Source of the DNA: Halostella pelagica
Lineage (GTDB): Archaea > Halobacteriota > Halobacteria > Halobacteriales > Natronoarchaeaceae
Assembly: GCA_005954745.1 (NCBI GenBank)
Contig: CP040678.1
Coordinates: forward strand, 2,914,001-2,978,000
DNA: 64,000 nucleotides
Direction: 5' to 3'
The notes under the pieces were generated by a model, which was not told the DNA's origin, did no database searches, and saw nothing but the letters and a program-made list of their open reading frames with translations. Shown piece after piece: positions 1,834 through 9,848 of the stretch. The first letter of the stretch is position 1. Every line of letters starts with the position of its first letter. The position numbers were made by a program, and so were the translations under genes.

Positions 1834-2643
1834 ATGGTCAGCATCGACGAGAAGCGGGTGTACGGCGACAAGACCGGGCAGACGACGGCCTACGTCGCCG
1901 CCGGCCAGGGGGTCGCCAGCGTGTCCGTCTCCGCCGACCGGGTCGGACAGTACGGCATCGACCACGAGTGTACCGCGCTCGACGTTGCCGCGACGGACGG
2001 CCAACTCGCCGTCGCCACCCCCGGAGACGTACTCGTCAAGGACGAGGAGAGCTACGATCCGGTCGGCTTCGGACCCGCCGTCGCGGTGGGGTTCGACGGC
2101 GACGCGCTGGTCGCGGTCGCGCCGGACTGGTCCGTCGCGCGCGCCACCGAAACGGACGAGTGGACGACCGTCGGGACCGTCGGCAGCCCCGTCCGCGCCG
2201 TCGACGGCGACCTGATCGCCGCGGAGGACGGCGTCTACCGTCTCGCAGACGCCCAACTCGCCCACTCGGGCCTCGACGACGCCCGCGACGTCTCCGCCGC
2301 CGGCACGCCGCTGGCCGGGACGGGCGAAGGCCTGTTCGAACTCGGTGCCGGATGGATGAAGCAGATCCGCGGCGAGTGCGCGCTGGTCGGCGCGGCCCGC
2401 GACACGCCCCCCGGCGAACTGGACCGCGCCCACGCCGCGACGGCGGAGACGGGGTACGCCCACCACGACGGCGAGTGGACTCCGATATCCGTGCCTGCCG
2501 ACGGCGCGGTAGCCGACGTCGGCTACGGTGACGAGGCGGTGTACTTCGTGACCGGCGACGGGACCTTCCTCGCGGACGCCGGCGACGGCTGGCGGTCACA
2601 GCCGCTCGGACTGACGGAGGTCGGCGGCGTCGCGGTCCCGTAA
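1834..2643 (+). CDS. HVO_0234-like beta-propeller protein
   Basis: The product is a 269-residue acidic soluble protein without signal peptide or membrane segment. It has repeated short strand-turn-strand units (for example AVATPGDVLVKDEES, VDGDLIAAEDGVYRL, GTPLAGTGEGLFELG), as in a beta-propeller. The N-terminus MVSIDEKRVYGDKTG matches what I recall of the haloarchaeal HVO_0234 family; its function is not known. The frame is open further upstream, but that extension overlaps the mutase gene on the other strand and has poor codon character, so the ATG at 1834 is preferred. PRPP synthetase follows 66 bases downstream behind its own TATA-like box. Confidence 0.75.
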   Translation: MVSIDEKRVYGDKTGQTTAYVAAGQGVASVSVSADRVGQYGIDHECTALDVAATDGQLAVATPGDVLVKDEESYDPVGFGPAVAVGFDGDALVAVAPDWSVARATETDEWTTVGTVGSPVRAVDGDLIAAEDGVYRLADAQLAHSGLDDARDVSAAGTPLAGTGEGLFELGAGWMKQIRGECALVGAARDTPPGELDRAHAATAETGYAHHDGEWTPISVPADGAVADVGYGDEAVYFVTGDGTFLADAGDGWRSQPLGLTEVGGVAVP

Positions 2644-2709: not shown

Positions 2710-3558
2710 ATGATAGTCAGCGGGTCCACGTCGCAGTCGCTCGCGGCCGCACTGGCCGACGAGTTAGACGAACCGCTCGCTCCGGTCGAGTTCGAACGAT
2801 TTCCGGACGGCGAACAGCTCGCCAGCATCGGCGAGGTCTCACCGGACCGGGCGGTGATCGTCGCGTCGACGCCGACCAGCGACGCCCACGTCGAACTGCT
2901 CCAGTTGCAAGACGCCGCGCGCGAGGCCGGGGCACGGGAGGTCGTCACCGTCATCCCGTACATGGGCTACGCACGTCAGGACGACGCGTTCAACCCCGGC
3001 GAGCCTGTCTCGGCGCGGGCGATGGCACGGGCCATCAGCGCCGGGACGGACCGAACGCTGGTCGTCAACCCGCACGAGGACGCAGTGTGTGACTTCTTCG
3101 ACCCGCAGGCGACGGCCGTCGACGCCGCGGCGCGACTCGCGGACCCGCTTCCCGATGCCCTCACGGACCCGCTCTTTCTCTCGCCGGACGAGGGCGCGCT
3201 CGCTATCGCGACGACGGTGCGGGACGCATACGGGACGGGCGAGACGGACTTCTTCGAGAAGACGCGCCACTCCGGGTCCGAGGTCGAGGTTTCGCCCAGC
3301 GACGCCGCGGTCGACGGGCGAGACGTGGTCGTCACCGACGACATCATCGCCACCGGGTCGACGATGAGCGAGGCCGTCGGAATTCTGGACGAACGCGGTG
3401 CGGCGCGGGTGTTCGTCACCTGCGTACACCCGCTCCTTGCTCGAAACGCACCGACGAAACTCGCGCGGGCGGGCGTCGAGGCGGTCTACGGGACGGACAC
3501 GCTCGAACGCGCGTCCAGCGCGGTCAGCGTCGCGCCGGTTGTCGCGGGCGAGTTATAG
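2710..3558 (+). CDS. prs: ribose-phosphate pyrophosphokinase (PRPP synthetase)
   Basis: The enzyme makes 5-phosphoribosyl 1-diphosphate from ribose 5-phosphate and ATP, for purine, pyrimidine and histidine synthesis. At 282 residues it has the compact archaeal form. Visible signatures are the N-terminal FPDGEQLASI loop, the conserved IPYMGYARQDD segment, NPHEDAV, and the PRPP-binding loop VVVTDDIIATGSTM. A TATA-like gggtttaagc at about 2679-2688 lies some 25 bases upstream of the ATG, so the transcript should be nearly leaderless. Confidence 0.95.
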   Translation: MIVSGSTSQSLAAALADELDEPLAPVEFERFPDGEQLASIGEVSPDRAVIVASTPTSDAHVELLQLQDAAREAGAREVVTVIPYMGYARQDDAFNPGEPVSARAMARAISAGTDRTLVVNPHEDAVCDFFDPQATAVDAAARLADPLPDALTDPLFLSPDEGALAIATTVRDAYGTGETDFFEKTRHSGSEVEVSPSDAAVDGRDVVVTDDIIATGSTMSEAVGILDERGAARVFVTCVHPLLARNAPTKLARAGVEAVYGTDTLERASSAVSVAPVVAGEL

Positions 3559-3648
3559 CCGGACGAACCTCTCAGCCGGGGGTTTTAAGAACCGGTCCGC
3601 ATTGGTAAGTGTGTGGACAGTACGCGTGCGTGGGGGGCGAAGTGAGAT

Positions 3649-4185
3649 ATGCACGGGATCATTCACAAGTCGCTGAAAGGGTTCGTCGAAGACCGGATGA
3701 CTGACGGCGCCTGGGAGGTGATCATGGACGAGTCGGGTATCGAACCGAAGCTCTACCTCCCGGTGTCGCATTATCCTGACGAGGAGTTAGACGCCATCTT
3801 CGATACCATCGCCGACCGGACGGACCAAACTGAGGCGTCGCTCCAGCGCACCTTCGGCGAGCATCTCGCACCGGCGCTGCTCGACACGTTCAAGGCCCAC
3901 GTCCGGGACGACTGGACGACGCTCGACCTTCTCAGCAACCTGGAGACGATCTACGAACAGATACGGACCGGCAACGACGAAACGGATCCGCCGGCGGTCG
4001 ACACCGAACGCGTCGACGAGGAGACGGTGACGGTCACGTACCGATCTGACCGCGAGATGTGTCCGCTTGCGAAAGGGATCGTTCTCGGCATCGCCGGCGA
4101 GTACGACGAGACGGTCACCATCGAGGAAGACGCGTGCCTGCTCGACGGCGACGACCGCTGTGACCTGACCGTCGTCCGCGAGTGA
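3649..4185 (+). CDS. H-NOX-like (heme NO-binding) protein with Tyr in place of the proximal His
   Basis: The 178-residue protein has the length and outline of an H-NOX domain: an N-terminal MHGIIHKSLKGFVEDRM as in H-NOX proteins, a helical middle, and the heme-propionate motif YxSxR as Tyr131-Ser133-Arg135, the same numbering as in the Thermoanaerobacter protein. The segment that should hold the proximal heme ligand, normally NLDSLH, reads NLETIY, putting Tyr102 (TAC at 3952-3954) where His is expected. Cys138, Cys163 and Cys171 at the C-terminus resemble the cysteine set of V4R-type domains. The gene stands alone with its own TATA-like ttttaag at 3584-3590. It could be a tyrosine-ligated heme sensor, or a relative that binds another ligand. 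Confidence 0.8.
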   Translation: MHGIIHKSLKGFVEDRMTDGAWEVIMDESGIEPKLYLPVSHYPDEELDAIFDTIADRTDQTEASLQRTFGEHLAPALLDTFKAHVRDDWTTLDLLSNLETIYEQIRTGNDETDPPAVDTERVDEETVTVTYRSDREMCPLAKGIVLGIAGEYDETVTIEEDACLLDGDDRCDLTVVRE

Positions 4186-4248: not shown

Positions 4249-6429
4249 CTATCGGACGCTACGGCCGAGTAAGAGCGCAGTCGCGAGTATCGCGAGCGCC
4301 GCGAGCATCGCGCCGAATCCGGGTGTGTCGACGGTGCGTTTCCCCGCGACGTCGACCGTTCGCTCCGCGTCGCCGGCGCTCACTCGCACCTCTCCGGACG
4401 GGAGAGTGACGTTCGCCGTCACGGTATCTTCCTCGTCGACATCGAGCGCGACCGAACGCAGCGCGACCCGTTGACCGTCGACGCGGAAAGCAACGTCCCC
4501 GTCGGCGGGGCGGTCGGCACCGTTCGACACGGTCGCGATCAGTCGGACTGACTCGCCAGCCGTGGGTGACGCAGGGTCGACCCGGATATCGGTGACAGCG
4601 GGCGTCGCCGACTCTCGGACCTCGACGGTCCGTTCGGTACCTTCGACCTCGATACGATACGTTCCAGGTCGGTCGAACACCGTCGCCAGAACGACCGCCG
4701 CGCGCTCACCCGGGTCAAGCGTGACGTGTCTGGCGGCGACGCGCTCCCCGTCGACGGTCATCGCAACGGCGAACTCGCCCGTCCGGCCGCCGTCGTTTTC
4801 GACGGATACGGTCGCGGTGAGGCGCTCGCCGGGGACGAGCGTCGGGGGCGCGGTCACGGTCCGGTTTCGCGACGGGCCGTCGACCCGGAACGAGTCGATA
4901 GACGCCGAGAGGATCGCCGGCGAAGAGTCGAACGTCGCGGCGTGATCCGCTGCGCTCCAGACTGTCGGCACTGTGTCCGTCTCGACGAACTCGCGAGTCC
5001 GCTCTCGAACCGCGGGGCCGCCGGAGGCATTCACCGCGTCGTAGAAGTCGCCGGACGTGACCCGCTCGTACTCGTTGAGTCTGCGAAACACCACGCCGAA
5101 GTTCCGGCGTCGGTCGCTCGCAACGCGAGCGTGGTAATCGACCGCGCCGACCGCGAGCGCCCCCTTCACGTAGTTCGCGTTGGTTCGCTGCCAGGTCGTC
5201 GGGTCCGCGAGCACGGAGCCGGCGTACGGGCTCCGTTCGCCGTTACGCAAGTGGTCGCGGAACGTCCGGAAATCGATGCGGCCCTGCTCGAACGCGTAGA
5301 GCGCGGCGTAGTACTCTGCGCCGCCCTCGATCAGCCACTGCGTCTCCGCCGTTGTCTGGTACGCCTGCCGGGTGTGGACGTACTCGTGGATCCAGACGTT
5401 GTCCGGCGAGGCGAGTCGCGAGTCCGCGAGCACCCAGGCGTCGTCCGGGCCGAACTGGAGGCCGCGGGCCGCCCAGTTCGTAGTCGTCGGAGCCGCGACG
5501 AAAAACGGCACCTCGTCGCGCGCGCCGACGCGGAGGCGGCCGCTGGCGTCGTCGAGCGAGTCGAGAACGGCCCCTGGCGACTCGGCCATCGACGCCGCCT
5601 CGGGAACGATCAGCCGGATCCGCTGACCGTCCACCTCGCGGACGTGCTCCTCGGACGGACCGAGAAAGGCGACTTCTCCGCCGGTCGCGCCGTCGCCGTC
5701 GACGACAGTTCGCCTGTCGAGCGTCACGTCCTCGCCGCGGTAGTTCCAGCCCGTCCGCAGTTGGGGTACCCGCACCACGGCCCAGTCGCCGGTGTCGACG
5801 AACACGTATCCCGCGTCGGCGAGGTCTCCGTCGAGGTGTGTGTGGGTCGCCACGCGCGAGCGGTCGGCGGTGTGTGTCCCTTCGCCTCCCTCGTAGTGGC
5901 CCGACCCGTCCACGTGGTTGCCCCCGCCGTCACCGCCCTCGCTCCCTGTGACGTTTATCGCGCGCCGTGTCTCGCCCGTCTCGTTCGCCGGGTGGTCGAA
6001 GGTGACCGCGGGGCGAGATGTCCTCCCGTCCCACTCGTACTCGTTGCCCTCGGCCCGACTGAATCCGCGGGTCGACGTCACCGTGGCCTCGTCCGGGATC
6101 GCGACCGTGACGCCGCTCACCCGGTCGGGCACTTGAAACCGAACCCTCGCTTCGATGCTCCCTGGGTCCGCCGGCGTGAGGGCGAGCGAGAGCGTCCGAA
6201 CGAGTGGATCGGCGGCCGAGGCGTTCCGCGAATTCGACGCGTTCGACGCGGTACTCGCACTCGCTGGACTCCGAACGTTCCCGGCGGACGACGGGGCAGC
6301 GTCCGCCGTCGCGGCGGGCGGCGCGTCCGCGGCCGGCACGTCCGCACGGGCTGACGGCGCACCCCCTGTGGCGACGGTTGCCGGCAGTGAAACAAGCAAC
6401 AGGAAGACGACAACGCCTCTCAGATACAC
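4249..6429 (-). CDS. secreted surface metalloprotease with PGF-CTERM anchor
   Basis: The predicted 726-residue protein begins with a Sec-type signal peptide (YLRGVVVFLLLVSLPATVA) when the GTG at 6427-6429 is used. The open frame extends far upstream as Arg-rich noise, so this start is chosen for the signal peptide. Residues 348-352 are HEYVH, an HExxH zinc motif, and WLIEGGAEYYAAL follows with Glu368 as the likely third ligand, as in the peptidase MA/gluzincin group. Residues about 505-690 hold two CARDB-like beta domains. The C-terminus is a PGF-CTERM signal: TPGFG at 702-706, a hydrophobic helix and a final Arg. Archaeosortase would cut it and attach it to lipid in the S-layer. It probably trims external proteins; the substrate is unknown. 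Confidence 0.83.
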   Translation of the reverse strand: MYLRGVVVFLLLVSLPATVATGGAPSARADVPAADAPPAATADAAPSSAGNVRSPASASTASNASNSRNASAADPLVRTLSLALTPADPGSIEARVRFQVPDRVSGVTVAIPDEATVTSTRGFSRAEGNEYEWDGRTSRPAVTFDHPANETGETRRAINVTGSEGGDGGGNHVDGSGHYEGGEGTHTADRSRVATHTHLDGDLADAGYVFVDTGDWAVVRVPQLRTGWNYRGEDVTLDRRTVVDGDGATGGEVAFLGPSEEHVREVDGQRIRLIVPEAASMAESPGAVLDSLDDASGRLRVGARDEVPFFVAAPTTTNWAARGLQFGPDDAWVLADSRLASPDNVWIHEYVHTRQAYQTTAETQWLIEGGAEYYAALYAFEQGRIDFRTFRDHLRNGERSPYAGSVLADPTTWQRTNANYVKGALAVGAVDYHARVASDRRRNFGVVFRRLNEYERVTSGDFYDAVNASGGPAVRERTREFVETDTVPTVWSAADHAATFDSSPAILSASIDSFRVDGPSRNRTVTAPPTLVPGERLTATVSVENDGGRTGEFAVAMTVDGERVAARHVTLDPGERAAVVLATVFDRPGTYRIEVEGTERTVEVRESATPAVTDIRVDPASPTAGESVRLIATVSNGADRPADGDVAFRVDGQRVALRSVALDVDEEDTVTANVTLPSGEVRVSAGDAERTVDVAGKRTVDTPGFGAMLAALAILATALLLGRSVR

Positions 6430-6587: not shown

Positions 6588-9500
6588 TCAGTCGCCGCTC
6601 GCCCGTTCCGAGGCCTCCTGCTGGTCGGCCTCGTGCGGCTCGATCGCTATCTCCATCTCTACGCCTTCCACGTCCCATTCCTTGCGGTGGCCGTCCTCGA
6701 CGGGACCGAGTTCGTCGGCGCGGACCTCCTCTCGGACGAGGTCCTCGCGGCGTTCGATCAGGTCGGCGACGCGGGCGTCGTCGACGGCAAAGTCGAGGCG
6801 GATGCGCTCCTCGATGTCGAGTTCGAGGTCTTTGCGCATCTCCTGAACCCGGCGGATAACCTCGCGCGCGTAGCCCTCGCTCTCGATGTCCTCGGTGAGC
6901 GCCGTGTCGACGTAGACGACGCCGCGCTCGTCGCCGTCGTCCTCGACCGCCGTTCCGGTGACGCCGTCCGGCGTCTCGGTGACGAACTCGACCATCTCGG
7001 CGGTGAGTTGCTCGCCCTCCAGCACGTCGCTGACGGCGGATTGGAGCGCGTCTAACGAGGGGTCGTCGATGCGGGCCTCGTTGAGCGCGTTCATCACCTC
7101 GCCGGCGCGGTCGCCGAAGGCAGGGCCGAGTTCGCTCATATCGGCGCGGGCGCTGTACTCCAGTTCGTCCCACTCCTCGTCGGCACGGACGAGTTCGACC
7201 GCGCGAGCGTTCAGACGGTCGGCGAGCAGGTCGCGATGGCGGGAAACGGCCTCGGCGAGGCGGTCGTCGTCCGCCGCGACGACGATCCGCTGGACGGGCC
7301 AGCGGAGTTTTCGCTCGGCCTGCTGGCGGGCGTTCGACCCCGCTTCCTCGACGGCGCGCAGGAGACCGACGTCAGTCTCTAACTGTTCGTCGTGCCAGCG
7401 CTCGTCGACCTCGGGCCAGTCGGACATGTGAACGGTGTCGTGGCCGTCGTCGCCCGTGAGCGTGCCGTATATCTCCTCGGCGGCAAAGGGCGCGTACGGC
7501 GCGAGCAGTTTGACCACCGTCGACAGCACCTCGTAGAAGGTGGCGTACGCCGCCTGCTTCGAGGCGCTGTCCTCTTCTTCCCACATCCGTTCGCGGACGA
7601 CCTGGATGTAGAACCGGGAGACGTCGTCGACGACGAACTCCAGGAGCGCGTCGAGCGCCTTGTCCTGCTGGTAGTCCTCCCAGTGGTCGCTCATCTCTGC
7701 GACGACCGACTGGAGGCGAGCGAGCACCCACTCATCGACGAGGTGGAGGTCCTCCCCAACCGAATCGAGCGTGGTCTCCTCGGGGTCGAAGCCGTCGAGG
7801 CGCATGTACGGTAGCGGGAACCGGAACACGTTCCAGAGGATGTTGAGGTCCCGCTGCATGTTCTCGGTCTCGTCCCACGAGAAGCGCATGTCGTCGCCCT
7901 GCGGGTTGACCGACAGGAGGAACAACCGCATCGGGTCCGCGCCGTACTCCTCGATGACCTCGTTCGGTTCGACGGTGATGCCCTTGGACTTGGACATGCC
8001 GCGGCCGTCGGGCATGTTGGCGTACCCGTGCATCAGCACTTCCTTGTACGGGATCTCGCCCATCGCTGCGGTGGCCATCCCGAGTTGCGACCAGAACCAG
8101 CCGCGGGTCTGGTCGTGGGCCTCCATGATAAGGTCGGCGGGCCACAGTTCCTCGAAGTCGTCCTCGTTCGACGGGTAGTCGAGGGTGCCCCACGTCGCCA
8201 CCGAGGAGTCCAGCCACACGTCGAACACGTCGCCGACGCGGGTGTAGGTGGTGCCGTTCTCCGAGATGGTGAGGTCGTCGACGGTACCTTTGTGGAGGTC
8301 CACGTCCTCGGGGTCGACGGACTGGTCGACGCGCTCGGCGAGTTCCTCGCGGTCGCCGACGACGACCACGTCGCTCATGCTGCCGTCCCAGTCCTCGGGC
8401 GTCCAGATCGGGATCGGGATCCCCCAGTAGCGCTGACGGGAGACGTTCCAGTCGGGAGCGTCCTCGACGAAGTCCCGGAAGCGGTTGTCCCGCGCCCACT
8501 GCGGGTGCCACTCGCTGTCCTCTATGTTAGAAAGCAGTTCGTCCTTGATGTCGGTGATCGTGATGAACCACTGGTCGGTGACGATCTGGATGATGCCGGT
8601 GTCACAGCGCCAGCAGTGGCCGTAGCTGTGGTGGGTCGTCCCGGCGTCGAGCATCAGCCCCTTCTCCTGCAGGTCGGCGATGATGTCGTCGTCGGCGTCT
8701 TTGACGAACTGGCCGGCGTAGTCGCCGCCGCTGCCGTCGTACACGCCGTCGCCGTCGACCGGACAGAAGATGTCGAGGCCGAGTTCGCGGCCGCGCTCGA
8801 AGTCCTCCTCACCGTGGCCCGGCGCGGAGTGGACGAGGCCGGTCCGGTCGACCTCGACGTAGTCGGCGGTGTTCACCTGTAGCGCGTCCTCGCCCGATGG
8901 GTGGTCGGGCACCTCGTCGGCGAGCGGGTGGTCGTACTCCCAGCCGACCATCTCCTCGCCGGTGACCTCCTCGACGACCTCGTAGTCGTCGTAACGGCCC
9001 TGACGGAGCACGTCCTCGACGCAGTCCTCGGCCAGATAGAGGACCTCCTCGCTGTCCCCCGCGGCTTCGCCGCTCCGGTTCGCGGACGAGTCCGCGCTCT
9101 TCTGGGCGCGGACGCCCTGGTACGTCACGTCGCCGTCGACCGCGACGAACGTGTTCGCGGGGATGGTCCACGGCGTCGTCGTCCAGATGACGAGCGACCC
9201 GTCGCGGTCTTTCAGCGGGAACTTCACGTAGACGGAGGGGTCCTCGACGTCGTCGTATTCGACCTCGTTGTTGGCGATAGCGGTTTCACAGCGCGGGCAC
9301 TGCGAGATGGAGCGCTGGCCCTGCTCGACGAGACCACGCTCGTGGGCCTGCTTGAACCCCCACCACGCGGCCTCCATGTACTCGGGGTTTACCGTCTTGT
9401 ACGGGTCGTCCCAGTCCATCCAGACGCCGAAGGACTTGAAGTCGTTCTGGAGGCCTTCGAGTTGCTCGTTCGCGTACTCCTTGCACTCCTGGATAAAGTT

Positions 9501-9848
9501 CTCCTCGCCGAACTCCTCGATGTCTTTCTTGTTCTCGAAGCCGAGTCGCTCCTCGACTTTCGTCTCGATGGGGAGGCCGTGCATGTCGTAGCCCGGCCGG
9601 TCCGTCACGTCGTACCCCTGCATCCGCAGGTAGCGGATGTAGGCGTCTTTCAGGGTCTTGTTCCAGGTCGTTCCCATATGCGCCGCCCCGGAGGTGTACG
9701 GCGGGCCGTCGACGAAGAAGAACGGCTCCTCGCCCTCTCGGTGCTCAGTTGTTTGCTCGTACGCGTCGACCTCGTCCCAGTAGTCGAAGACGCGGTCCTC
9801 GACCACGTCGGGGTCGTACTGGTCGTCTACCGCCGCGAACCTGCTCAT
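6588..9848 (-). CDS. ileS: isoleucyl-tRNA synthetase
   Basis: This class I aminoacyl-tRNA synthetase charges tRNA-Ile. At 1086 residues it has the archaeal length. The HIGH-type signature appears as HMGT at residues 57-60 after PPYTSGAA, and the KMSKS-type loop as GRGMSKSKGITVEPNE about residue 620. The editing domain lies between them, and the anticodon-binding and C-terminal domains follow. Residues about 248-266 (KSADSSANRSGEAAGDSEE) form a hydrophilic insert inside the editing region; its DNA consists of two hairpins (see the repeat entry at 9061-9096). The gene is monocistronic with ordinary codon use apart from the insert. Confidence 0.97.
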   Translation of the reverse strand: MSRFAAVDDQYDPDVVEDRVFDYWDEVDAYEQTTEHREGEEPFFFVDGPPYTSGAAHMGTTWNKTLKDAYIRYLRMQGYDVTDRPGYDMHGLPIETKVEERLGFENKKDIEEFGEENFIQECKEYANEQLEGLQNDFKSFGVWMDWDDPYKTVNPEYMEAAWWGFKQAHERGLVEQGQRSISQCPRCETAIANNEVEYDDVEDPSVYVKFPLKDRDGSLVIWTTTPWTIPANTFVAVDGDVTYQGVRAQKSADSSANRSGEAAGDSEEVLYLAEDCVEDVLRQGRYDDYEVVEEVTGEEMVGWEYDHPLADEVPDHPSGEDALQVNTADYVEVDRTGLVHSAPGHGEEDFERGRELGLDIFCPVDGDGVYDGSGGDYAGQFVKDADDDIIADLQEKGLMLDAGTTHHSYGHCWRCDTGIIQIVTDQWFITITDIKDELLSNIEDSEWHPQWARDNRFRDFVEDAPDWNVSRQRYWGIPIPIWTPEDWDGSMSDVVVVGDREELAERVDQSVDPEDVDLHKGTVDDLTISENGTTYTRVGDVFDVWLDSSVATWGTLDYPSNEDDFEELWPADLIMEAHDQTRGWFWSQLGMATAAMGEIPYKEVLMHGYANMPDGRGMSKSKGITVEPNEVIEEYGADPMRLFLLSVNPQGDDMRFSWDETENMQRDLNILWNVFRFPLPYMRLDGFDPEETTLDSVGEDLHLVDEWVLARLQSVVAEMSDHWEDYQQDKALDALLEFVVDDVSRFYIQVVRERMWEEEDSASKQAAYATFYEVLSTVVKLLAPYAPFAAEEIYGTLTGDDGHDTVHMSDWPEVDERWHDEQLETDVGLLRAVEEAGSNARQQAERKLRWPVQRIVVAADDDRLAEAVSRHRDLLADRLNARAVELVRADEEWDELEYSARADMSELGPAFGDRAGEVMNALNEARIDDPSLDALQSAVSDVLEGEQLTAEMVEFVTETPDGVTGTAVEDDGDERGVVYVDTALTEDIESEGYAREVIRRVQEMRKDLELDIEERIRLDFAVDDARVADLIERREDLVREEVRADELGPVEDGHRKEWDVEGVEMEIAIEPHEADQQEASERASGD
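9061..9096 (-). repeat. hairpin-coding in-frame insert in ileS
   Basis: Two perfect hairpins sit side by side inside ileS: arms GCGGC at 9061-9065 and 9069-9073 with a three-base loop (GAA in the gene's sense), and arms CGCGGA at 9081-9086 paired with TCCGCG at 9091-9096 with a four-base loop. They encode part of a Ser/Ala/Asn/Glu-rich patch that does not look like the flanking conserved enzyme sequence. Confidence 0.6.

Follow-up and report, generated by a model that had tools for sequence, protein, structure and literature searches.

The window analysed here, a 64,000-nt stretch of the Halostella pelagica genome, contains an open reading frame for a single-domain protein of the H-NOX/HNOB family in which the proximal heme histidine is missing (Table 1). 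The Pfam HNOB profile (PF07700) matches residues 2-159 over profile positions 1-162 of 163 (E = 1.4e-30; 106.8 bits against a cut-off of 25.5), which places the protein in this family, and no other HNOB gene was found in the H. pelagica genome. A template-free structural model was built from 2 sequences and is of moderate quality (pLDDT 66.8, pTM 0.65). Its best structural match is the H-NOX structure 4u9b (Z 15.4, rmsd 3.0, 170 aligned), and the next fold after H-NOX is Bet3 (Z 9.1). With H-NOX structures matching first, the protein has, by this model, the H-NOX fold.

Table 1. Features of the H-NOX-like gene and its surroundings, in window coordinates
Feature	Position	Strand	Remark
HVO_0234-like beta-propeller gene, in conserved locus	1840..2643	+	start not defined
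prs, ribose-phosphate diphosphokinase (PRPP synthetase), conserved upstream neighbour	2710..3558	+
TTTAAG, TATA-like box, 59 nt before ATG	3584..3589	+	conserved in 5/5 genus members
H-NOX/HNOB-fold single-domain protein without proximal heme His	3649..4185	+	178 aa ORF
His6, diagnostic of non-His102 clade	3664..3666	+
Phe81, diagnostic of non-His102 clade (Tyr in His clade)	3889..3891	+
Tyr102 at proximal heme-ligand column	3952..3954	+	codon TAC
Pro115, heme-distorting proline of H-NOX	3991..3993	+
Y131-x-S133-x-R135, heme-propionate motif	4039..4053	+	Y131 4039-4041; S133 4045-4047; R135 4051-4053
Cys138, Zn-ligand column (C139 of S. oneidensis)	4060..4062	+
Glu160, fourth Zn-ligand column (H161 of S. 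oneidensis; Gln in V. cholerae)	4126..4128	+
Cys163, Zn-ligand column (C164 of S. oneidensis)	4135..4137	+
Cys171, Zn-ligand column (C172 of S. oneidensis)	4159..4161	+
CARDB-domain surface protein, convergent downstream neighbour in many members	4249..6417	-
ileS, in conserved locus	6588..9848	-

Profile searches also touched the V4R family. The V4R profile (PF02830) aligns with residues 121-175 at 23.3 bits (E = 7e-5), below its cut-off of 31, so the protein is not counted as a V4R member, and the sole NCBIfam match, MsvR, is weak (residues 91-174, E = 0.0025). V4R proteins were not among the top structural matches listed, an absence that says nothing either way. A search for viral relatives of the protein gave no match.

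The sequence-only reading had placed a tyrosine at proximal heme position 102 and a YxSxR motif at residues 131, 133 and 135. Both assignments stand. Tyr102 aligns with the proximal histidine of S. oneidensis H-NOX (2kii/4u99, where it is His103), and haloarchaeal paralogs align through this column without an indel (ANIQQ-FHTSLR in a His protein, SNLET-IYEQIR in a Tyr protein); the motif is confirmed by its codon positions. The window protein therefore has Pro115 and the full YxSxR motif expected of a heme-binding H-NOX, and helix F carries Tyr102 instead of the proximal His. As for the rival outcome raised in that reading, an alignment that puts another histidine in the pocket, misalignment was rejected, since no His lies at or beside column 102 in the window protein; His6, specific to the clade described below, is a candidate from elsewhere in the chain. 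Across 598 homologues, conservation of the proximal His is reported to be absolute (PMC7108781). A structure of the S. oneidensis H-NOX variant H103G has been solved (2kil), so loss of this residue is compatible with the H-NOX fold.

To sample the family, 392 genomes of the order were searched for HNOB, and the matches and further loci were retrieved. A match was found in 91 genomes; most had none. The main sample comes from these genome-wide searches, and a short-peptide scan of genome contigs contributed one relative only. The sample holds one genome per species, mostly from one order with few outgroups, and bacterial H-NOX is hardly sampled at column 102. In the first set of 111 different sequences, the commonest residues at column 102 are His (53) and Tyr (37), followed by Ala (6), Thr (6), Val (5), Arg (2), Ser (1) and Phe (1). 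Genes of the non-His type were found in about 60 haloarchaeal genomes from at least 20 genera, and both types occur together in 23 genomes. Within the window's family, Tyr is the residue in all the non-His members found. The comparison of haloarchaeal HNOB proteins that had been proposed for this column thus returned a non-His state across a whole clade, and a sequencing error or lone mutation was rejected for this reason.

A first tree, for which columns 102, 138, 163 and 171 were left out, confines the His state to one side of one branch. The same branch was recovered when bacterial outgroups, all His, were added (support 94/95, 94% of bootstrap trees); the non-His clade is then nested among haloarchaeal His-type proteins, by branches that are weak right around it. 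A tree without long rows and clade-diagnostic columns again gave one change, with branch support dropping to 46. The histidine was lost once, and its absence is a clade trait of single origin. Tyr is the commonest and probably the founding state of this clade. No description of a non-His haloarchaeal H-NOX clade was found in the literature searched, nor anything joining haloarchaea or PRPP synthetase with H-NOX. Elsewhere in the sample, tandem pairs of His-type HNOB genes occur in several genomes (L002, L004, L007, L017, L028), and other lineages of the phylum have His-type HNOB genes without the three-cysteine site (L113-L121).

To compare what each group has kept, representatives were chosen at 85% identity, giving 27 His-type, 13 window-side Tyr and 29 other non-His proteins. 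Two residue sets were scored: the heme anchors (P115-Y131-[ST]133-R135) and a metal quartet (the three Cys plus E, Q or H at 160). Both sets are complete in all 27 His-type proteins. On the window side the quartet is present in 13/13 and the heme-anchor set in only 6/13, significantly fewer than in the His type (Fisher p = 9e-5). The window-side Tyr proteins form an early-branching grade rather than a clade in the tree with bacterial outgroups. The other non-His proteins show the reverse: the heme anchors are kept in 27/29, the three Cys in 20/29 and the full quartet in 7/29, and residue 102 is varied. These opposite patterns indicate that the two parts of the non-His clade went different ways, and with the pattern reversed in the derived sister lineages, a single mechanism may not fit all members of the clade.

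Selection acts on the window gene. Its dN/dS against the nearest relatives is ∼0.3-0.4, rough values from a simple counting method, and it is under purifying selection; 22 columns are invariant across 25 diverse members.

The three cysteines, which are the only ones in the protein, fall on the columns of the zinc ligands C139, C164 and C172 of S. oneidensis H-NOX, and their spacing (25/8) is the same. In that protein the zinc is held by C139, H161, C164 and C172 (PMC7108781). All 13 close relatives and all 27 His-type proteins have E, Q or H at column 160, and Glu160 of the window protein may serve as the fourth metal ligand, as a Glu does in DmpR and MopR. The suggestion that Cys138, Cys163 and Cys171 form a metal or redox site has therefore gained ground: they match known zinc ligands and persist in the 13 nearest relatives where the heme anchors erode.

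In V. cholerae H-NOX without heme, oxidation of the zinc cysteines acts as the switch (PMC7108781), and Caulobacter H-NOX is switched by cysteine oxidation and is unresponsive to NO (PMC12329717). In the archaeal regulator MsvR, the V4R cysteines C206, C232 and C240 (spacing 26/8) form a redox switch. DmpR binds zinc through C151, C177 and C185 (also 26/8) and one Glu. The Zn-Cys site of MopR has been stated to be structural, and such sites can be purely so.

The best explanation is that the protein works without His-ligated heme, as a member of a clade that lost the heme-ligating His once. Cysteine oxidation in V. cholerae and Caulobacter H-NOX, the cysteine spacing of MsvR and DmpR, and the 25/8 spacing with Glu160 in the window protein together favour a zinc-thiol redox sensor, and by analogy with these systems we give this predicted, heme-independent function about an even chance. 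In such a sensor the three Cys and Glu160 would most likely hold a zinc ion, and thiol oxidation would rearrange the metal site. The two subdomains would then move about the conserved glycine hinges G70 and G143, altering how the protein interacts with a partner, in line with a proposal made for heme-free V. cholerae H-NOX. Of the three options in the sequence-only reading, sensing of another signal and loss of heme fit the data best, and ligation of ferric heme by Tyr is weakly supported.

It is unlikely that Tyr102 serves as axial ligand of ferric heme, which would give a heme carrier or a sensor without the usual mode of NO binding. Tyr is the commonest and probably founding residue, it does not vary among the 13 representatives nearest to the window protein, and P115 and the YxSxR motif are intact in the window protein and, as Yx[ST]xR, in 27/29 other members. 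The columns expected from H-NOX structures to line the pocket are still hydrophobic, with summed volumes of 1816 (His), 1808 (window-side) and 1777 (other) cubic angstrom; at the sequence level the cavity is not visibly filled. This unchanged volume and the retained motifs suggest that some ligand, perhaps heme, may still bind. Against Tyr ligation, residue 102 is A, T, V, S, R or F in 18/42 non-His representatives (∼7 changes between Tyr and another residue) while P115 and Yx[ST]xR stay. R135 is replaced by K, L, N or H in 4 of the 13 nearest representatives. Position 106, i+4 from Tyr102, varies, and no conserved Arg, His or Tyr partner lies one turn away.

Also doubtful is a different cavity ligand, whether a small molecule, hydrophobic or aromatic, of the kind bound by the V4R sensors DmpR and MopR, a tetrapyrrole bound otherwise than by its metal, or heme on a relocated ligand such as His6. 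The sub-threshold V4R match is consistent with it, as are the Cys3-Glu zinc site that lies beside an aromatic-binding cavity in DmpR and MopR and the retention of P-Y-[ST]-R in 27/29 other members whatever residue 102 is. His6 points the same way, being present in 40/42 non-His representatives and 0/27 His-type proteins; residues 1-7 of the model, which include it, have pLDDT below 50. Against this reading, some members of the window's group have lost R135. Alongside His6, Phe81 is found in 42/42 non-His representatives and Tyr81 in 27/27 His-type proteins. The two residues stand where the His clade has Leu or Phe6 and Tyr81, and this exchange may reflect a contact pair.

Decay of a former sensor, into a scaffold like the heme-free H-NOX of the sGC alpha subunit or on the way to loss, is highly improbable: the patchy occurrence of HNOB in the order, the many prs genes without an HNOB neighbour, one frame-broken copy and the drift of residue 102 in derived lineages are in its favour, but purifying selection, the invariant quartet (13/13), the 22 invariant columns and a locus kept in at least 20 genera oppose it. 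The broken copy is a non-His HNOB gene at the prs locus of genome G111, spread over three frames (L150:313-1455 (-), L133).

The zinc-thiol reading can be set against known systems. The window protein resembles the zinc-bearing H-NOX proteins of S. oneidensis, V. cholerae and Caulobacter (groups 2 and 3 of PMC7108781) in fold, length, P115, YxSxR and glycine hinges, and in being a stand-alone domain with the three zinc-ligand Cys columns at the same spacing. It differs from them in having Tyr for the proximal His, Glu rather than His or Gln at the fourth ligand column, and prs upstream instead of a histidine kinase or c-di-GMP enzyme. Haloarchaeal His-type proteins belong to the same family (33-41% identity in the examples measured) and share the Cys3 + E/Q/H site, but have His102 (27/27), Leu, Phe, Met or Tyr at 6 and Tyr81, and mostly lie beside methyl-accepting transducer and CheW genes. 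The human sGC alpha "pseudo-H-NOX" (PMC8196705) is likewise a natural H-NOX domain without the heme His; it is eukaryotic, sits within a large enzyme, and has its pocket blocked by an N-terminal extension that is absent here, where the domain begins at residue 1. MsvR shares the three cysteines (26/8 against 25/8) and a weak profile match. The phenol sensors DmpR, MopR and PoxR share three Cys (26/8) and a Glu that hold zinc there, next to a hydrophobic ligand cavity. In these sensors a His/Trp pair binds the phenol. Relative to the second Cys, the Glu of DmpR is at -5 and that of the window protein at -3, and the V4R match of the window protein is below cut-off.

Genomic neighborhood analysis separates the two types. 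Immediately upstream, and on the same strand, prs is present in 65/68 non-His loci (39/41 representatives) and in 0/74 His loci; neighbour gene calling was crude, and prs was therefore confirmed by tblastn. His-type loci contain a methyl-accepting transducer (MCP) gene in 15/18 representatives, often with CheW. In genus g2 of the window's family, the HNOB gene lies ∼10 kb from prs beside a Band-7 gene. The TTTAAG box, conserved in five genus members, points to a probable promoter of the gene's own. Also conserved in the genus is a G-rich leader in the interval that separates prs from the HNOB gene.

A conserved branch without the heme His, beside an essential nucleotide-synthesis gene, suggests a sensor that dispenses with heme and may read redox state through its Cys-metal site. 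PRPP synthetase is the obvious candidate partner. However, the HVO_0234-like - prs - ileS order also occurs in genomes without the HNOB gene, so the linkage may be inherited old synteny, and it was not accepted as proof of partnership. That the clade, freed from His-ligated heme, has become a dedicated zinc-thiol redox sensor and controls PRPP synthetase, coupling redox state to nucleotide-precursor supply in haloarchaea, is decidedly improbable.

The response of H-NOX through cysteines and zinc may be a genuine function or may merely accompany the loss of heme in vitro, and separating heme-free from heme-independent mechanisms in vivo has been called extremely challenging (PMC8738867). A natural clade without the heme ligand, with the metal site kept on the window side and His-type paralogs in some genomes, offers a ready-made test. 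Without a check of column 102, the annotation "heme NO-binding domain-containing protein" cannot be relied on in archaeal genomes.

Two further arrangements were observed. In three genus-level relatives, a Bmp/PnrA-like substrate-binding lipoprotein gene and an MCP gene lie 0.4-3.5 kb downstream (L032:6932-10563 (+), L067, L079); the pair is not present in the window within the stretch examined, and beside prs and a non-His HNOB gene it is a possible nucleoside-taxis module. On a Natrinema salinisoli plasmid, a His-type H-NOX gene shares a few bases with an unusual neighbour, a gene of the pyridoxamine 5'-phosphate oxidase family (L036:3998-4591 / L179:3001-4658).
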